A stretch of DNA of 64,000 nt from Pseudomonas coleopterorum (GTDB lineage Bacteria > Pseudomonadota > Gammaproteobacteria > Pseudomonadales > Pseudomonadaceae). The stretch covers positions 2,170,001 to 2,234,000 of the forward strand of contig NZ_FNTZ01000001.1 in NCBI RefSeq assembly GCF_900105555.1. The letters run 5' to 3'. This document shows positions 2,531 through 55,974 of this stretch, piece after piece. Positions within the stretch are counted from its first letter, which is position 1. The number at the start of each line of letters is the position of its first letter. Made by a program: the position numbers and the translations under genes. The notes beneath the pieces are model-generated. The model saw only the letters and a program-made list of their open reading frames with translations. It did no database searches and had not been told where the DNA came from.

Positions 2531-2543
2531 TAACATCATGACA
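2531..2543 (+). repeat. Candidate Ter-like repeat, copy 1
   Basis: TAACATCATGACA, followed by GGTGG, in the short gap between two convergent genes. The same 13-mer (one R position) recurs at 4824 and 4949 in the same orientation, both close to the 3' end of the Tus-like gene. A role as a Tus-binding terminator site is inferred from that proximity. Confidence 0.5.
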
Positions 2544-4009: not shown

Positions 4010-4768
4010 ATGCCGATTCACTATTCAAGAAAGCTGACCGGCAGAGACCGCAGCAAGGCTGGCAACACGCAATTGGGATGTATCCTCGCGTTCGTTGCCG
4101 GAGCCATCAACGCAGGTGGCTTTCTGGCCGTGCAGCAATACACGTCGCATATGACCGGTATCGTGTCGGCGATGGCCGATCATCTCGCTCTGGGTGCTTA
4201 CGAGGTGGCCCTGGCAGGCATCGGAGCATTGTTTTCGTTTCTCGTTGGGGCGGCATGCTCAGCCATCATGGTGAACTTCGCTCGTCGCCATGACCTGCAC
4301 AGCGAATATGCGTTGCCGCTTCTGGTAGAAGCCGTATTGCTGCTGTGCTTTGGCCTGCTGGGTGCTCGGCTCGCGGGGGTCGACGGCCTGTTCGTTTCCC
4401 TGACGGTGATGCTGCTGTGTTTCATCATGGGGCTGCAAAACGCGCTCATCACCAAACTCTCTGGAGCGGAGATACGCACGACTCATATCACTGGCATCGT
4501 GACCGATATCGGTATCGAGATAGGGAAGTTGCTGTATTGGAACGGCCCCAGTCCAATCAATCCGTTGAAGGTGTCGGCAAACCTGCCGCGCCTGATGACC
4601 TTGACTTCGCTCCTGGGTTTTTTCTTTCTGGGGGGGCTGATCGGGGCGCTGGGGTTCAAGACTATTGGCTATGTTGCAACGGTTCCGCTGGCGTTGACGC
4701 TGATGTTGCTGGTTCTGGTGCCTGTTGCCGACGACCTGAATCGGTTTGCGAGAAACCGACACAAATAA
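4010..4768 (+). CDS. YoaK/DUF1275 family integral membrane protein
   Basis: A 252-residue inner-membrane protein with about six hydrophobic helices. It shows the family hallmarks early in the sequence (AFVAGAINAGGFLAV, then TSHMTGIVS). A mid-protein MGLQNALITKLSG and RTTHITGIVTDIGIEIG form the second conserved half. The family is widespread and its function unknown; a transport role is often assumed. The ATG follows GAGAAAG. The 285 bp after its stop contain two copies of the 13-bp repeat and lead into the 3' end of the Tus-like gene, so the two genes converge. Confidence 0.85.
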   Translation: MPIHYSRKLTGRDRSKAGNTQLGCILAFVAGAINAGGFLAVQQYTSHMTGIVSAMADHLALGAYEVALAGIGALFSFLVGAACSAIMVNFARRHDLHSEYALPLLVEAVLLLCFGLLGARLAGVDGLFVSLTVMLLCFIMGLQNALITKLSGAEIRTTHITGIVTDIGIEIGKLLYWNGPSPINPLKVSANLPRLMTLTSLLGFFFLGGLIGALGFKTIGYVATVPLALTLMLLVLVPVADDLNRFARNRHK

Positions 4769-4823
4769 AGCACGCCATTAAGGGATGAGCGCGGCACATG
4801 ACACGTCAATCGGTTAGCAGTAA

Positions 4824-4836
4824 TAACATCATGGCA
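4824..4836 (+). repeat. Candidate Ter-like repeat, copy 2
   Basis: TAACATCATGGCA followed by GGCGG. It shares its flank (RCAGGYGG) with copy 1 at 2531. It lies in the gap between the convergent DUF1275 and Tus-like genes. Confidence 0.5.
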
Positions 4837-4948
4837 GGCGGCCCCAGCGACTTCAATCTACTCTCCGCGTGTCGTGAACGTAGAAGGGGCCGTCATCGCG
4901 CTTGACTGAAGATCCCGCGCTGCAATGATTACCTTAGTCCAATAACAG

Positions 4949-4961
4949 TAACATCATGACA
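4949..4961 (+). repeat. Candidate Ter-like repeat, copy 3
   Basis: TAACATCATGACA, 113 bases after copy 2, same strand, about 90 bases beyond the stop of the Tus-like gene. Its reverse complement reads ATGATGTTACT, which matches 9 of 11 bases of the Escherichia coli Ter core ATGTTGTAACT. Confidence 0.5.
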
Positions 4962-5053
4962 TTGCAACCGTTTTGGATGACCCACGCACCGCGTTCACAA
5001 CCCAGTTAACAACAAAAAGCGCGCTCAAGTTCTGTTCCCAGTCCAAACCTTTT

Positions 5054-6013
5054 TCAATTCTCTTCCGACTTCTTGGGCATCGGTCCATACACACGATGCT
5101 CTTCCTTGTAGCGGAACAGGTTCATCGCTTCCACATATGGATCATCCTCCAGCAATGCCAAGCGGGTATTTTTCTTCACCAGGATCTTCGGCTCGTAACT
5201 TTGAAGCGGTTTGACCTTCGGCGCTGGCTGGCCTAGTTCGTAGACGAAGGGGACCGGGGCAATGATCGGCTTCACTTTCGCGTCTGCATTGCGAACTCGC
5301 GCGCGAATATGTGGCTGCACCAATCGACGAATCGCGACCTGTTCGCTCGGGTCGAGCTTGGCCAGCATGTCAATGCCGTAGAGTAGGGCGTTCTCCGCCG
5401 CAGCTTCCGAGGAGTGGTGCACGGCCGCTTGTTTGTCGCGGTATTGATCGAGCAACTCTTTCCATTCTTCAATCAAGTCGCCGGCCATCTTGCGTGCGCC
5501 GGAAGAGCCGGTGTCATCCCAGTAGAAGTTGATGACCTGGGGATCGGTAAGCACATGGGTCAAGCGCAAAGCCTGCTTGGGAACGATACCGTTTCCGCTG
5601 CCCTTGAAGCGGCCCCAGACATTGCGGCGATCGTTGGTCTTTTCGATGGCCCCGATCAACTTGCCCAGCTCGCTACGGGTGACGTTCGTCTGCAGGATCT
5701 TGTCGATGGCCGCGCGGGGCAGGGCGATCACACCGGGTACACGCAGCGTTTCCCGTGGGTGCTGGCCAACTTTGACCCAGATACTGGTGAGTGCTTCGAA
5801 CGCCGCTTGTACGGCCTCATCGCCGTAGAGCGTGCGAACTTCTATCGGTTCGTTGCGCACCGCATCCTCAGGCCGGAAATCCAGGCCGAACATGGCATCG
5901 ACATGGGCTCGATCCCTGACGGCCCGCAGCACTTCGCCCAACTCCATCAACTCGGACTGGAGCCGGTTGACCATGGCGATGGCCGCGCTCGTTTGGCTAA
6001 GATGCAGGTCCAT
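5054..6013 (-). CDS. tus: Tus-like DNA replication terminus site-binding protein
   Basis: Predicted to bind Ter DNA and stop replication forks coming from one side. At 319 residues it is close to E. coli Tus (309). I recognise it by collinear blocks. A central IEV...YGDEAVQAAF then LRVPGVIALP corresponds to Tus IEVKQHLGNDAQ...VRLPGV. RLTHVLTDPQVINFYW corresponds to RTLTVLHDPATLRFGW. A C-terminal VKPIIAPVPFVYE, then a conserved NLFRYKEEHRVYGP, corresponds to the end of Tus. Chromosomal Tus is classically an enterobacterial protein, so a pseudomonad copy is notable. Context supports the role: dif is about 50 kb to the right and a repeated 13-mer flanks the gene. A LexA-type box lies 45 bases upstream of its ATG, suggesting SOS control. 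Ter binding itself is inference. Confidence 0.82.
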   Translation of the reverse strand: MDLHLSQTSAAIAMVNRLQSELMELGEVLRAVRDRAHVDAMFGLDFRPEDAVRNEPIEVRTLYGDEAVQAAFEALTSIWVKVGQHPRETLRVPGVIALPRAAIDKILQTNVTRSELGKLIGAIEKTNDRRNVWGRFKGSGNGIVPKQALRLTHVLTDPQVINFYWDDTGSSGARKMAGDLIEEWKELLDQYRDKQAAVHHSSEAAAENALLYGIDMLAKLDPSEQVAIRRLVQPHIRARVRNADAKVKPIIAPVPFVYELGQPAPKVKPLQSYEPKILVKKNTRLALLEDDPYVEAMNLFRYKEEHRVYGPMPKKSEEN

Positions 6014-6057
6014 ACGTTTGTCCAGGTGATGGGCGGATGGCGCATTCTAGCGAGGTA

Positions 6058-6290: not shown

Positions 6291-7298
6291 TCAGCCTGCT
6301 ACCCGAGCGGTGCTCTGCCGGATCGTCAGCTGATAGGGCAATGTCACATGCCGTGCCGCCAGCGGGCGTTTCTCGATCAGGCTGATCAACATTTCTATCG
6401 CCTGCTGGCCGAACTGTTCGGCCGGCTGGGCGATGGTCGTCAGCGGCGGATCGCAGTAGGCGGCCAGTTCGATGTCGTCGAAGCCGGCCAGTGAAACGTC
6501 TTGAGGTACGCGCAAGCCCATTTCCCTGATCCGCTTCAAGGCGCCGATGGCCATTTCATCGCTTTCACAGAACAGTGCGGTGGGGCGCTCGGGCCCAGCC
6601 AGCAACTGCAGCACACCGTCATAGCCGGCTTTTAGACTGAAATCCCCTGGGCAGATCATTGCCGGGTCGGGTGCGATGTCGGCTTCGCGCAGCGCCGCTT
6701 CGTAGCCCGCGCGGCGGTCGTGAGTCAGCGGGCTGTCGGCCGGTCCGTTGATCAAGCCGATGCGTCGGTGGCCCAGGTCGAGCAGGTGCTGGGTGACGGC
6801 TTTGGCAGCCGCTCGGTTATCCAGGCTGACGGTTGGATGACGACCGCTCTGCAGCACTTCGCAGGCGTTGACGATGGGCGGCACGTCCGAGAGGTCGCTG
6901 GTTGAGGCGAACGGATCGTAGGCGCGCAACTGCAGAACCCCGTCGGCCTGATGGGCGTGTACCAGCTCGGCAAATTCGCGCTCGGTGGCTTCGCAACCCA
7001 GGGTGTCGCACAGCAACACGCGATAGCCGGCGGCCTGGGCGGCTTTCTGGGCGCCGCTGATGACGCGGGCAAAAAAGCCGTTGGCAATGTTCGGCACCAG
7101 AACGACCAGGTTGAACGTGCGCCGCGAGCGAAACTGCACGGCCATCAGGTTGGGTCGGTAGCCGGCCTGTTCCACAGCGACGTTGACCCGGTCACGGGTC
7201 TCGGGCAGCACTCGCTCCGGGGACTTCAAGGTGCGCGATACCGTCGCTACCGAAACCCCGGCCAGGCGCGCCACTTCACGAATGTTCGACAAGTCCAC
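6291..7298 (-). CDS. LacI-family transcriptional repressor
   Basis: Sugar-responsive DNA-binding regulator of 335 residues when started at GTG 7298 (VDLSNIREVARLAGVSVATVS), the normal LacI start. Longer in-frame extensions reach 7541 but precede the helix-turn-helix with unrelated sequence. The hinge region PNLMAVQFRSRRTFNLVVLVPN leads into the periplasmic-binding-like effector domain. CESDEMAIGALKRIREMG and DVSLAGFDDIELAAYCDPPLTTIAQP are typical of this domain. Divergent from an oxidoreductase/isomerase/MFS operon, with an 18-bp palindromic operator between them, so autoregulation and repression of that operon are likely. The effector is unknown. Confidence 0.92.
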   Translation of the reverse strand: MDLSNIREVARLAGVSVATVSRTLKSPERVLPETRDRVNVAVEQAGYRPNLMAVQFRSRRTFNLVVLVPNIANGFFARVISGAQKAAQAAGYRVLLCDTLGCEATEREFAELVHAHQADGVLQLRAYDPFASTSDLSDVPPIVNACEVLQSGRHPTVSLDNRAAAKAVTQHLLDLGHRRIGLINGPADSPLTHDRRAGYEAALREADIAPDPAMICPGDFSLKAGYDGVLQLLAGPERPTALFCESDEMAIGALKRIREMGLRVPQDVSLAGFDDIELAAYCDPPLTTIAQPAEQFGQQAIEMLISLIEKRPLAARHVTLPYQLTIRQSTARVAG

Positions 7299-39974: not shown

Positions 39975-41144
39975 CTAATATTCCGGCGATGGCTGCAATT
40001 GGCCAAATTCTGCGGTTTGTTGAATGCTCGGCTTGCGTACTTTGATGAACGGTTTCTCTACCCCATTGAATGTGACGTAGGACACCAGCGCTACGGCGAG
40101 CAATATCGCAGGCAAGCAGACGACGAAGTCCGTCAGCTGGGTGTTTTCGAACGAAAACAGATGCAGTGTTGAAAACGCGATGTACAGCACTGCGCCATGG
40201 GTCAGGTACAGGCTGTAGCTCACTTCGCCCAGGGATTTCAAGCCCCGGCTGGCCAGTAGGCCGAACACATCGTTGCCTAGCGCCAGGATCAGGAAAGGCG
40301 CGGCCAACGTGGCGATTTGAAGTACCGAATAGGCTTCCAGCGTCATCGCATAGGCCAACAACAAGAGAGCGGCGACTGAGACCAACGGGTGAGCCAGGTA
40401 GGCGATGCCCTGGGGGAAATGACGCTTGATGAGTACTGGGATAAAACCAGCCACGAAAAGCAGCAACAAGGCAGGTTTGACGACGCCAAACATCATGCCG
40501 ACAGCGATCACGACGCATACCAACAGCGAGGCCAACGAATACTGGCCGTACCAGACCTTGTTCACCAGCGCGGCGATAATCGGTAGCGTCAGATAGAACA
40601 GCCACTCGTAGCGCAATGTCCAGTGGACCCCTGCGGTCATGATGTTGCTATGAATGAAACCATTGAACGAACCGCCAGAAAACACCAGCCACTTGAACAC
40701 TTCCTTACCCAGTTCTTTCAGCGTAATGAAGGCAAAACCCGTTTCGAACAGGCTCAATAGAACCACGAATATCAGCACGAACACGTAAAGCGGCATGATC
40801 CGCAGCACTCGCGATATGAAGATGTCCAGAAAGTCTGGATGGCGCTGATATATTTTTCCGAAAAACAGAAAACCGGTAATCATGAAGAACAGCGATACCG
40901 GCACAGCCCCGAGATTGTTGAGCACGGCACTCTCAGGAGGAATCCAGCTACCCGTTGTTTTCCAGAAGTAAGTGACTACGAAGTGATGGCAGATAACCGC
41001 CGTCGCCAGGATGCCACGCAAGGCATCAAGCGGCGAAGAACGGGCCGCAGTTACCGCAGTGAGTACCGGCAAGCGAGAGAACAGCAGGCTTAGAATAAAT
41101 AGAGAAGCGCAGTAGACAAGCAAGATGACCGTAGTGGCATCCAT
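39975..41144 (-). CDS. Acyltransferase 3 (OafA-like) membrane protein
   Basis: A 389-residue inner-membrane protein with about ten helices. It has the family motif SSPLDALRGILATAVICHHFVV (conserved R and catalytic His) and ISRVLRIMPLYVFV. HWTLRYEWLFYLTLPII is the conserved mid-motif. Likely O-acylates a surface sugar or similar. Base composition is AT-richer than its neighbours, hinting at later acquisition. It is monocistronic and followed upstream by a 526-bp intergenic stretch. The acceptor is unknown. Confidence 0.9.
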   Translation of the reverse strand: MDATTVILLVYCASLFILSLLFSRLPVLTAVTAARSSPLDALRGILATAVICHHFVVTYFWKTTGSWIPPESAVLNNLGAVPVSLFFMITGFLFFGKIYQRHPDFLDIFISRVLRIMPLYVFVLIFVVLLSLFETGFAFITLKELGKEVFKWLVFSGGSFNGFIHSNIMTAGVHWTLRYEWLFYLTLPIIAALVNKVWYGQYSLASLLVCVVIAVGMMFGVVKPALLLLFVAGFIPVLIKRHFPQGIAYLAHPLVSVAALLLLAYAMTLEAYSVLQIATLAAPFLILALGNDVFGLLASRGLKSLGEVSYSLYLTHGAVLYIAFSTLHLFSFENTQLTDFVVCLPAILLAVALVSYVTFNGVEKPFIKVRKPSIQQTAEFGQLQPSPEY

Positions 41145-55232: not shown

Positions 55233-55974
55233 CCAGAGGCGCTCCATGAGCAACACCACAGTGCCGGGCGAAAATCAGAGGCGCGATCAACCTAGACCAT
55301 GACGCTCATGTCCTCGGGAGTGATGTAACTGAACCAACCGAGGGCGCCGAGCGGACTAACGAAGATAGCCATCGTGGTTCTTGTGGAGGGGGTGTGGCCT
55401 GAGCTGGGCAAGGATGGTTAATACCTGATTTAACATAATATACATTATGCGTAACGCCATGTCGTGCGTTCCGGACAAGCAGGGTTGCCTTGGTTTCCAA
55501 GCCTGTCTGCTTAATCATGCTGTTACCGTTCACAAATAAATGGAAAGACAGCCTCCACGGTGACCCGTTGTTCTGATTGGTTTTTCCATGTGCTGCGGAA
55601 GATCTTTAGCTTCGTTCGGTCGTAATTTGCCGGAGCTCACCACTTCGTGCCACTCGGTACCGTCAGGATCTCGCTAGGATCTCGTTTCCGCTAAGGAATG
55701 ATTGTTTACAGACCGTCATTCTGATTCCCGGGCGACTACTCAACACACCAGACATTGAGCAACAAATATGGAGCCATGCGGCGCGTTGCCGAGCTCCGGC
55801 CACAACTCTGCTAGCAAGATCATGAGGCAGCTGTGAGCGTCAGGCTACTGTGTCAGTGAAGAAAGACAGCCAGTGGCCGCGGCGCTCCAGGCTCATCAAT
55901 AGCATTGGGTTGGCTTCTCAGGAATCTGAACAGAGGCGGTACAGGCACGCTGCACAATCGTGATCCGAAGGGTC
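55233..55974. other. Mostly non-coding stretch carrying dif
   Basis: About 740 bases between the helicase-nuclease and a dehydrogenase pseudogene. Besides dif, I see only a short tandem duplication AGGATCTCGCT at 55665-55675 repeated at 55676, and a 26-codon frame on the - strand (55292-55372). That frame lacks a ribosome site and is probably chance. Confidence 0.6.
55428..55455 (-). other. dif site (XerC/XerD chromosome dimer resolution site)
   Basis: Read on the - strand, 26 of 28 bases match E. coli dif. The outer end begins GTTACGCATAA where E. coli has GGTGCGCATAA. The central TGTATA and the XerD arm TTATGTTAAAT are identical. XerCD recombine here and FtsK loads toward it, so this marks the replication terminus. 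The first of the two differing positions is in the part known to vary among gammaproteobacteria. Confidence 0.95.

Follow-up and report, generated by a model that had tools for sequence, protein, structure and literature searches.

The window analysed here is the whole 64,000-nucleotide stretch at positions 2170001-2234000 of a contig of 4,857,115 bases of Pseudomonas coleopterorum (the window species). It carries a tus-family gene, short asymmetric sites behind this gene and a dif site, which are listed below by their coordinates within the window.

5054..6013, minus strand: tus-family gene of 319 aa, a Ter-binding protein by family (open reading frame and Pfam match).
6291..7295, minus strand: gene for a LacI-family regulator, marker of the syntenic locus (LacI, Gfo/Idh) adjoining tus (neighbour scan, genus search).
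4949..4959, minus strand: candidate Ter site L1, TCATGATGTTA, which continues CTGTTATTGG (exact motif, intergenic, 3' of tus).
4824..4834, minus strand: candidate Ter site L2, CCATGATGTTA (exact motif in the intergenic stretch 4768-5054, on the strand of L1).
2531..2541, minus strand: candidate Ter site L3, TCATGATGTTA (between the open reading frames ending at 2479 and starting at 2587; window species only).
40637..40649, plus strand: weaker candidate, TCATGATGTTGCT, with polarity opposite to L1-L3 (14.8 kb left of dif; may be a chance occurrence).
55428..55455, minus strand: dif, with 2 mismatches to the query, which we take to be the P. aeruginosa dif sequence (mean of 0 matches in 100 shuffles).

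The initial annotation had read the gene product as a Tus-like replication-termination protein. Its 319-residue open reading frame proved real and lies on the minus strand, which the annotation had left unstated; the plus-strand reading of the same interval contains stops and was rejected. The HMM and fold checks that had been proposed both came out in favour of Tus. Against the Pfam family PF05472 (Ter) the product scores 45.2 bits (E 8.5e-12), above the curated cut-off of 22, and the P. baltica copy scores 42.1 bits, while the predicted structure follows the two-domain Tus fold along residues 3-303. A search of PDB chains with the single window sequence did not find Tus; a 33-sequence profile (the window protein and 32 homologues) matched three distinct Tus sequences among the PDB chains (E 2.8e-14 to 4.4e-14), the match covering positions 15-281 of the 314 in the profile. 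Two of the sequence blocks that had been named as shared with E. coli Tus, IEV...RVPGV and LTHVLTDP...W, do align, but the FRYKEEH block falls outside the profile match, which ends at 281. We regard membership of the Tus family as practically certain. The match to NCBIfam NF002810, the enterobacterial Tus equivalog, is weak (37.9 bits, below the cut-off of 323), and judged by its sequence the window protein is related to this equivalog without being one. Homologues at 71-80% identity are present in the protein database.

Identity between the window protein and E. coli Tus is 18%. The alignment places the basic residues K89, R93, R232 and R241 of E. coli Tus opposite R87, R91, R230 and R239, respectively. 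The E. coli residues I79, F140 and H144, which we take to form the C(6) pocket, stand opposite V80, V132 and R135 in one alignment and partly opposite others in another. In contrast to E. coli Tus, the pocket residues thus assumed are not clearly conserved in the Pseudomonas protein, and a lock step may therefore be absent or take another form.

The gene is chromosomal and lies 49.4 kb from dif, in agreement with the distance of about 50 kb given initially. Cumulative GC skew reaches its maximum in the 2-kb bin spanning dif, and the position of dnaA (C1:4672904) puts the opposite point of the chromosome near 2.244 Mb, 19 kb from dif; both dif and this opposite point fall within the trap interval proposed below. 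Orthologues of tus occur in P. baltica (85% identity; on a 2.1-Mb contig) and Pseudomonas sp. 286 (84%; on a 0.81-Mb contig), where dif was also found; with dif orientation matched, tus lies on the same side as in the window species, at about 21 kb in P. baltica and about 32 kb in sp. 286. The genome labels G398 and G043 were taken as one P. baltica genome, and G399 and G249 as one sp. 286 genome, on the basis of identical or adjoining coordinates. Among the three species, tus is under purifying selection (dN/dS 0.05-0.09). It adjoins the same LacI-family and Gfo/Idh genes in all three carriers, a conserved context as found for 'resident' tus genes, and neither integrase nor transposase was present among the seven neighbour genes scanned in the window. 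The LacI gene was found at E 1e-60 or better in 58 of the 298 genomes of a genus sample; among the best 30 of these 58 loci, tus lay within the 1.5-kb flank in three and was absent from 27.

An asymmetric repeated site accompanies the gene, with CATGATGTTA present two or three times in the roughly 340 bp that follow tus in the three species. The 3' intergenic regions of the three loci can barely be aligned except for islands reading GTCATGATGTTA, and L1 lies within an island shared by the window species, P. baltica and sp. 286. There are three copies of CATGATGTTA in the tus 3' region of each relative and two in the window species, compared with shuffle means of 0.0004-0.002 across the three regions; for L1 and L2, two copies in 285 bp compare with a shuffle mean of 0.0004. 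L3 is also intergenic, 2.3 kb from the other tus-side copies. The tus promoter and upstream region contain no exact motif in the three species, the sites being downstream. In P. baltica and sp. 286, a plus-strand copy about 60 bp behind the tus stop codon faces the other two (near 6019-6030 of the P. baltica locus, and at the matching place in sp. 286); this copy, which the window species lacks, may be weak, without function or regulatory. A search of the 64-kb window for GNATGTTGTAACTA, presumably the core of the E. coli Ter, returned 0 matches at up to 2 mismatches. Two weaker plus-strand candidates in the window, one at 40637 and the other 88 bases past dif, were not relied on, as neither relative showed them in the 100 kb around dif that were scanned on each side.

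Genome-wide, the motif YCATGATGTTA occurs six times in the window species and five times each in P. baltica and sp. 286 (against 0, 2 and 1 hits, respectively, for the reversed pattern as control), and in all three genomes the copies are confined to two regions, one at tus and one right of dif. Polarity is consistent in the window genome, where the three copies at tus, left of dif, are all on the minus strand and the three right of dif are all on the plus strand; in each of the two relatives, a single tus-side site out of three has opposite polarity to the others. The right-hand sites of the window genome (C1:2559532, 2559593 and 2574072) have homologous places in both relatives, that of sp. 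286 being on a separate contig and placed by synteny. The best of them, TCATGATGTTACAT, lies 334 kb right of dif and overlaps the stop codon of what we take, from its sequence, to be ligA (NAD-dependent ligase). The motif occurs twice within 61 bp at this gene end in the window species and once in each relative, and the adjoining intergenic DNA is unalignable. The outer (third) right-hand site is weaker, as it sits within a wholly conserved 5' region and is followed by different bases, and it may be a chance occurrence.

Other Pseudomonas genomes provide a background for these counts. A ligA 3'-end query matched 198 of 199 genomes; among the best 30 of these 198 loci, the motif was present in two, those of the window species and P. 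baltica, and missing from the other 28; sp. 286, outside this set of 30, also has a plus-strand copy at its ligA end. A sample of 59 genomes provided 57 others from Pseudomonas, many of them drafts and a few with other, diverged tus genes, and these 57 contained 45 copies of YCATGATGTTA in total (mean 0.8, maximum 3); 29 of the 57 had at least one copy, and the closest pair on one contig was 144 kb apart. The simulated chance that every non-tus site would lie to the right of dif, no more than 350 kb away and in plus orientation, was 3.8e-5 for three sites and 1.3e-3 for two independent ones, values that are post hoc, as the motif was chosen by eye from the tus flank before counting, and that concern close relatives rather than independent species. 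Near-consensus matches to NYCATGATGTTRYTN with up to one mismatch numbered 49, 42 and 46 in the three genomes and had no obvious pattern, and exact sites alone were therefore used. Scans for CATGATGTT at four plasmid tus loci, and for the motif at 12 other Pseudomonas tus loci with 1.5-kb flanks, found none.

We propose, with a probability of about 0.7, that the tus-family gene and the TGTCATGATGTTAYT-type sites form a chromosomal fork trap around dif. The gene would have been taken over from the Pseudomonas megaplasmid pool and fixed on the chromosome in the lineage to which the window species, P. baltica and sp. 286 belong. The gene product would most likely bind the asymmetric TGTCATGATGTTAYT, which would represent a diverged Ter. 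Left-moving forks that have gone beyond dif would be halted by the copies just 3' of tus, on the left, and right-moving ones that have gone beyond it by those at the ligA 3' end. The outcome would be a wide trap of about 385 kb (2174959 to 2559532) that forks could enter and in which they would be stopped when leaving; as its innermost site is the one at tus, the layout would be of type I. Forks would often reach the barrier at tus, 50 kb from dif, and rarely that at ligA.

The blocking face is deduced by comparison with E. coli, where TerB is on the plus strand beside tus. The GC(6) end of Ter is the non-permissive face according to the available part of PMC8707476, and if the shared ATGTT is taken to align the Pseudomonas motif with TerB, this face would be turned towards dif on both sides. 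The G of ATGTT, the counterpart of C(6), belongs to the searched motif and is thus present in all sites by construction. The reverse polarity is unlikely because both forks would then stop before the terminus, which would be hardly bearable for the cell. Several observations speak against the trap. The turning point of GC skew is dif itself rather than the middle of the trap, which makes it probable that forks mostly meet near dif. In a simple trap, the plus-strand tus-side site in P. baltica and sp. 286 would halt the left fork 21-33 kb before dif. The right-hand sites lie far (334 kb) from dif, the assumed C(6) pocket residues are not clearly kept, and the tus promoter, unlike that of E. coli, has no copy of the motif. 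A further idea is a separate chromosomal domestication of Tus, outside the three clades with resident tus genes, in which Ter would have been re-coded as TGTCATGATGTTAYT 3' of the gene and the C(6) pocket altered, with polar arrest that proceeds without the enterobacterial lock or uses another flipped base; we put this forward tentatively and consider it rather doubtful.

The plasmid-derived Tus could instead be a leftover or selfish gene, with local, regulatory sites beside tus, no working trap and a merely coincidental set of ligA-side sites. The wide occurrence of tus on plasmids of Pseudomonas (the window protein matched 135 of 72,556 plasmid records, all below 60% identity, and 133 of the 135 are from Pseudomonas) and a diverged chromosomal tus about 1 Mb from dif in another Pseudomonas would fit such a view, and autoregulation could by itself explain the tus-side cluster. 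We nevertheless consider it unlikely, given the shared locus in three species with dN/dS of 0.05-0.09, the position of tus near dif rather than at a random place, and a plus-strand ligA-side site that is present in all three species (sp. 286 by synteny) and in 0 of the 28 other relatives fetched. The tus-side sites are moreover 3' of the gene and not at its promoter, and therefore autoregulation of the promoter by the same site is improbable.

The inverted pair of sites in both P. baltica and sp. 286 suggests another arrangement, in which sites 135-139 bp apart at tus would stop both forks as a single-locus terminator and the distant sites would play no part. This arrangement overlaps partly with the fork trap, but the plus-strand member is absent in the window species and the shared ligA-side sites would be left unexplained, and we judge it quite improbable. 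Even less probable, in our estimate, is that the motif is the site of another protein (e.g. a regulator or a terminus-organizing protein) unrelated to the Tus homologue. The link between motif and protein is drawn from sequence, and E. coli Ter is absent from the window, both of which would allow for such a protein; against it, the motif clusters at tus and, among the genomes counted, is commonest in those with the window-type tus. An RNA hairpin terminator at the tus-side sites is disfavoured as well, as folding was no better than in shuffles (z 1.02) and no intrinsic terminator was seen.

The candidate fork trap resembles the Tus-Ter system (types I and II) of E. coli and other Enterobacterales in its homologous protein and fold, its gene near dif, its asymmetric sites of opposite polarity on either side of dif (in the window species) and its type I layout with the tus-side site innermost (PMC8707476). 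Its width of about 385 kb falls inside the 18-564 kb given in the available part of Toft et al. (2021, PMC8707476). Unlike in E. coli, the Pseudomonas site has little in common with Ter beyond ATGTT and lies 3' of tus rather than in the tus promoter, and the host belongs to a different order. RTP-Ter of Bacillus subtilis likewise sets polar fork barriers around the terminus, with an unrelated protein (PMC10331603, as far as available).

Unplaced database proteins aside, the nearest named relatives outside the three species are the Tus proteins of Pseudomonas megaplasmids (pQBR103, pNY11382-IMP and others), with 37-53% identity among the 40 listed of the 135 matches. These genes differ in being plasmid-borne, and the four loci inspected have no CATGATGTT and a neighbour set that is common to them and unlike that of the window. 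No match to the window protein was found in 50,697 phage records. The available part of Galli et al. (2019, PMC6549158) regards resident tus genes as domesticated from plasmids in three clades, namely Enterobacteriales, Pseudoalteromonas (second chromosome) and Aeromonadales, and also mentions mobile tus copies on chromosomes. In line with that account, as far as it was available, the Pseudomonas plasmid pool is the likely source of the chromosomal tus. The Pseudomonas gene resembles the resident tus of Pseudoalteromonas chromosome 2 and Aeromonadales in being fixed in a conserved context outside Enterobacterales, but it lies near dif of the main chromosome, whereas the Pseudoalteromonas gene adjoins the origin of the second chromosome (PMC6549158, available part).

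Pseudomonas does not appear in the main text, as far as available, of PMC6549158, PMC8707476 and PMC10331603. A plasmid tus has been reported in P. nitroreducens (literature search including PMC7858055, PMC6199493 and PMC7466150, in their available parts), and the literature searched, consisting of open-licence papers available in part, yielded no chromosomal tus/Ter trap in Pseudomonas. Within this literature, the novelty is a known family with a diverged site and a different layout, in a lineage for which no fixed chromosomal trap is described. The suggestion in the initial annotation of a Tus-type trap outside the classical group thus gains support, with candidate Ter sites in trap geometry in the window species and binding and arrest that we infer. 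One amendment is needed: tus genes in themselves are not rare in Pseudomonas (133 plasmid records), the unusual feature being a conserved chromosomal copy near the terminus.

Why few bacteria keep a fork trap while most manage without one is an open question. A candidate trap in three close Pseudomonas species, with other relatives fetched that have no tus at the locus, could be used to approach it, as tus and the end of ligA, the two key places, are open to manipulation and comparison, and relatives that keep the LacI and Gfo/Idh genes but lack tus are available. A site so unlike E. coli Ter also offers a test of how far the Tus-Ter code and its lock can drift and still stop forks one-way. 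If the idea of a separate domestication holds, sister species that differ in the presence of the inverted tus-side site would form a natural series from a single-locus terminator to a wide trap.

Further tus genes are scattered among the relatives. Of 392 relatives searched with the window protein, 19 matched, a number that counts the window genome itself, and a genus-wide PF05472 search gave at least 12 of 398, a lower bound that missed at least P. baltica and the genome G149 though their proteins pass the cut-off. The single-contig Pseudomonas genome G149 carries a diverged chromosomal tus (C1:5965885; PF05472 68.3 bits) about 1 Mb from dif (4950391), and hence not near the terminus. In another genome, the tus gene of a 135-kb second replicon (G197:C2) lies 9.3 kb from a sequence resembling dif (94801-94824, 2 mismatches), which suggests a plasmid terminus with both dif and tus. 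Two different tus genes, on contigs C118 and C154, are found in one Pseudomonas genome (G105).

A remote Tus-like protein is encoded in another Pseudomonadales family, on a 3.7-Mb single-contig chromosome (G446:C1:1722246-1722962). Neither Pfam nor PDB gave a match to this protein, and the Pfam search of its genus returned 0 of 6; the gene is supported despite these results by profile comparison (hhalign probability 97.7%, E 2e-12, 222 columns). In the 280 kb fetched around the gene, no Pseudomonas-type dif was found, and nothing clear in the way of Ter-like repeats was seen beside it. It lies about 107 kb from the GC-skew maximum within these 280 kb, and a relative of the gene in G507 has a stop inside. 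Judged by their sequences, the genes of G446 and G507 possibly represent a second chromosomal Tus line.
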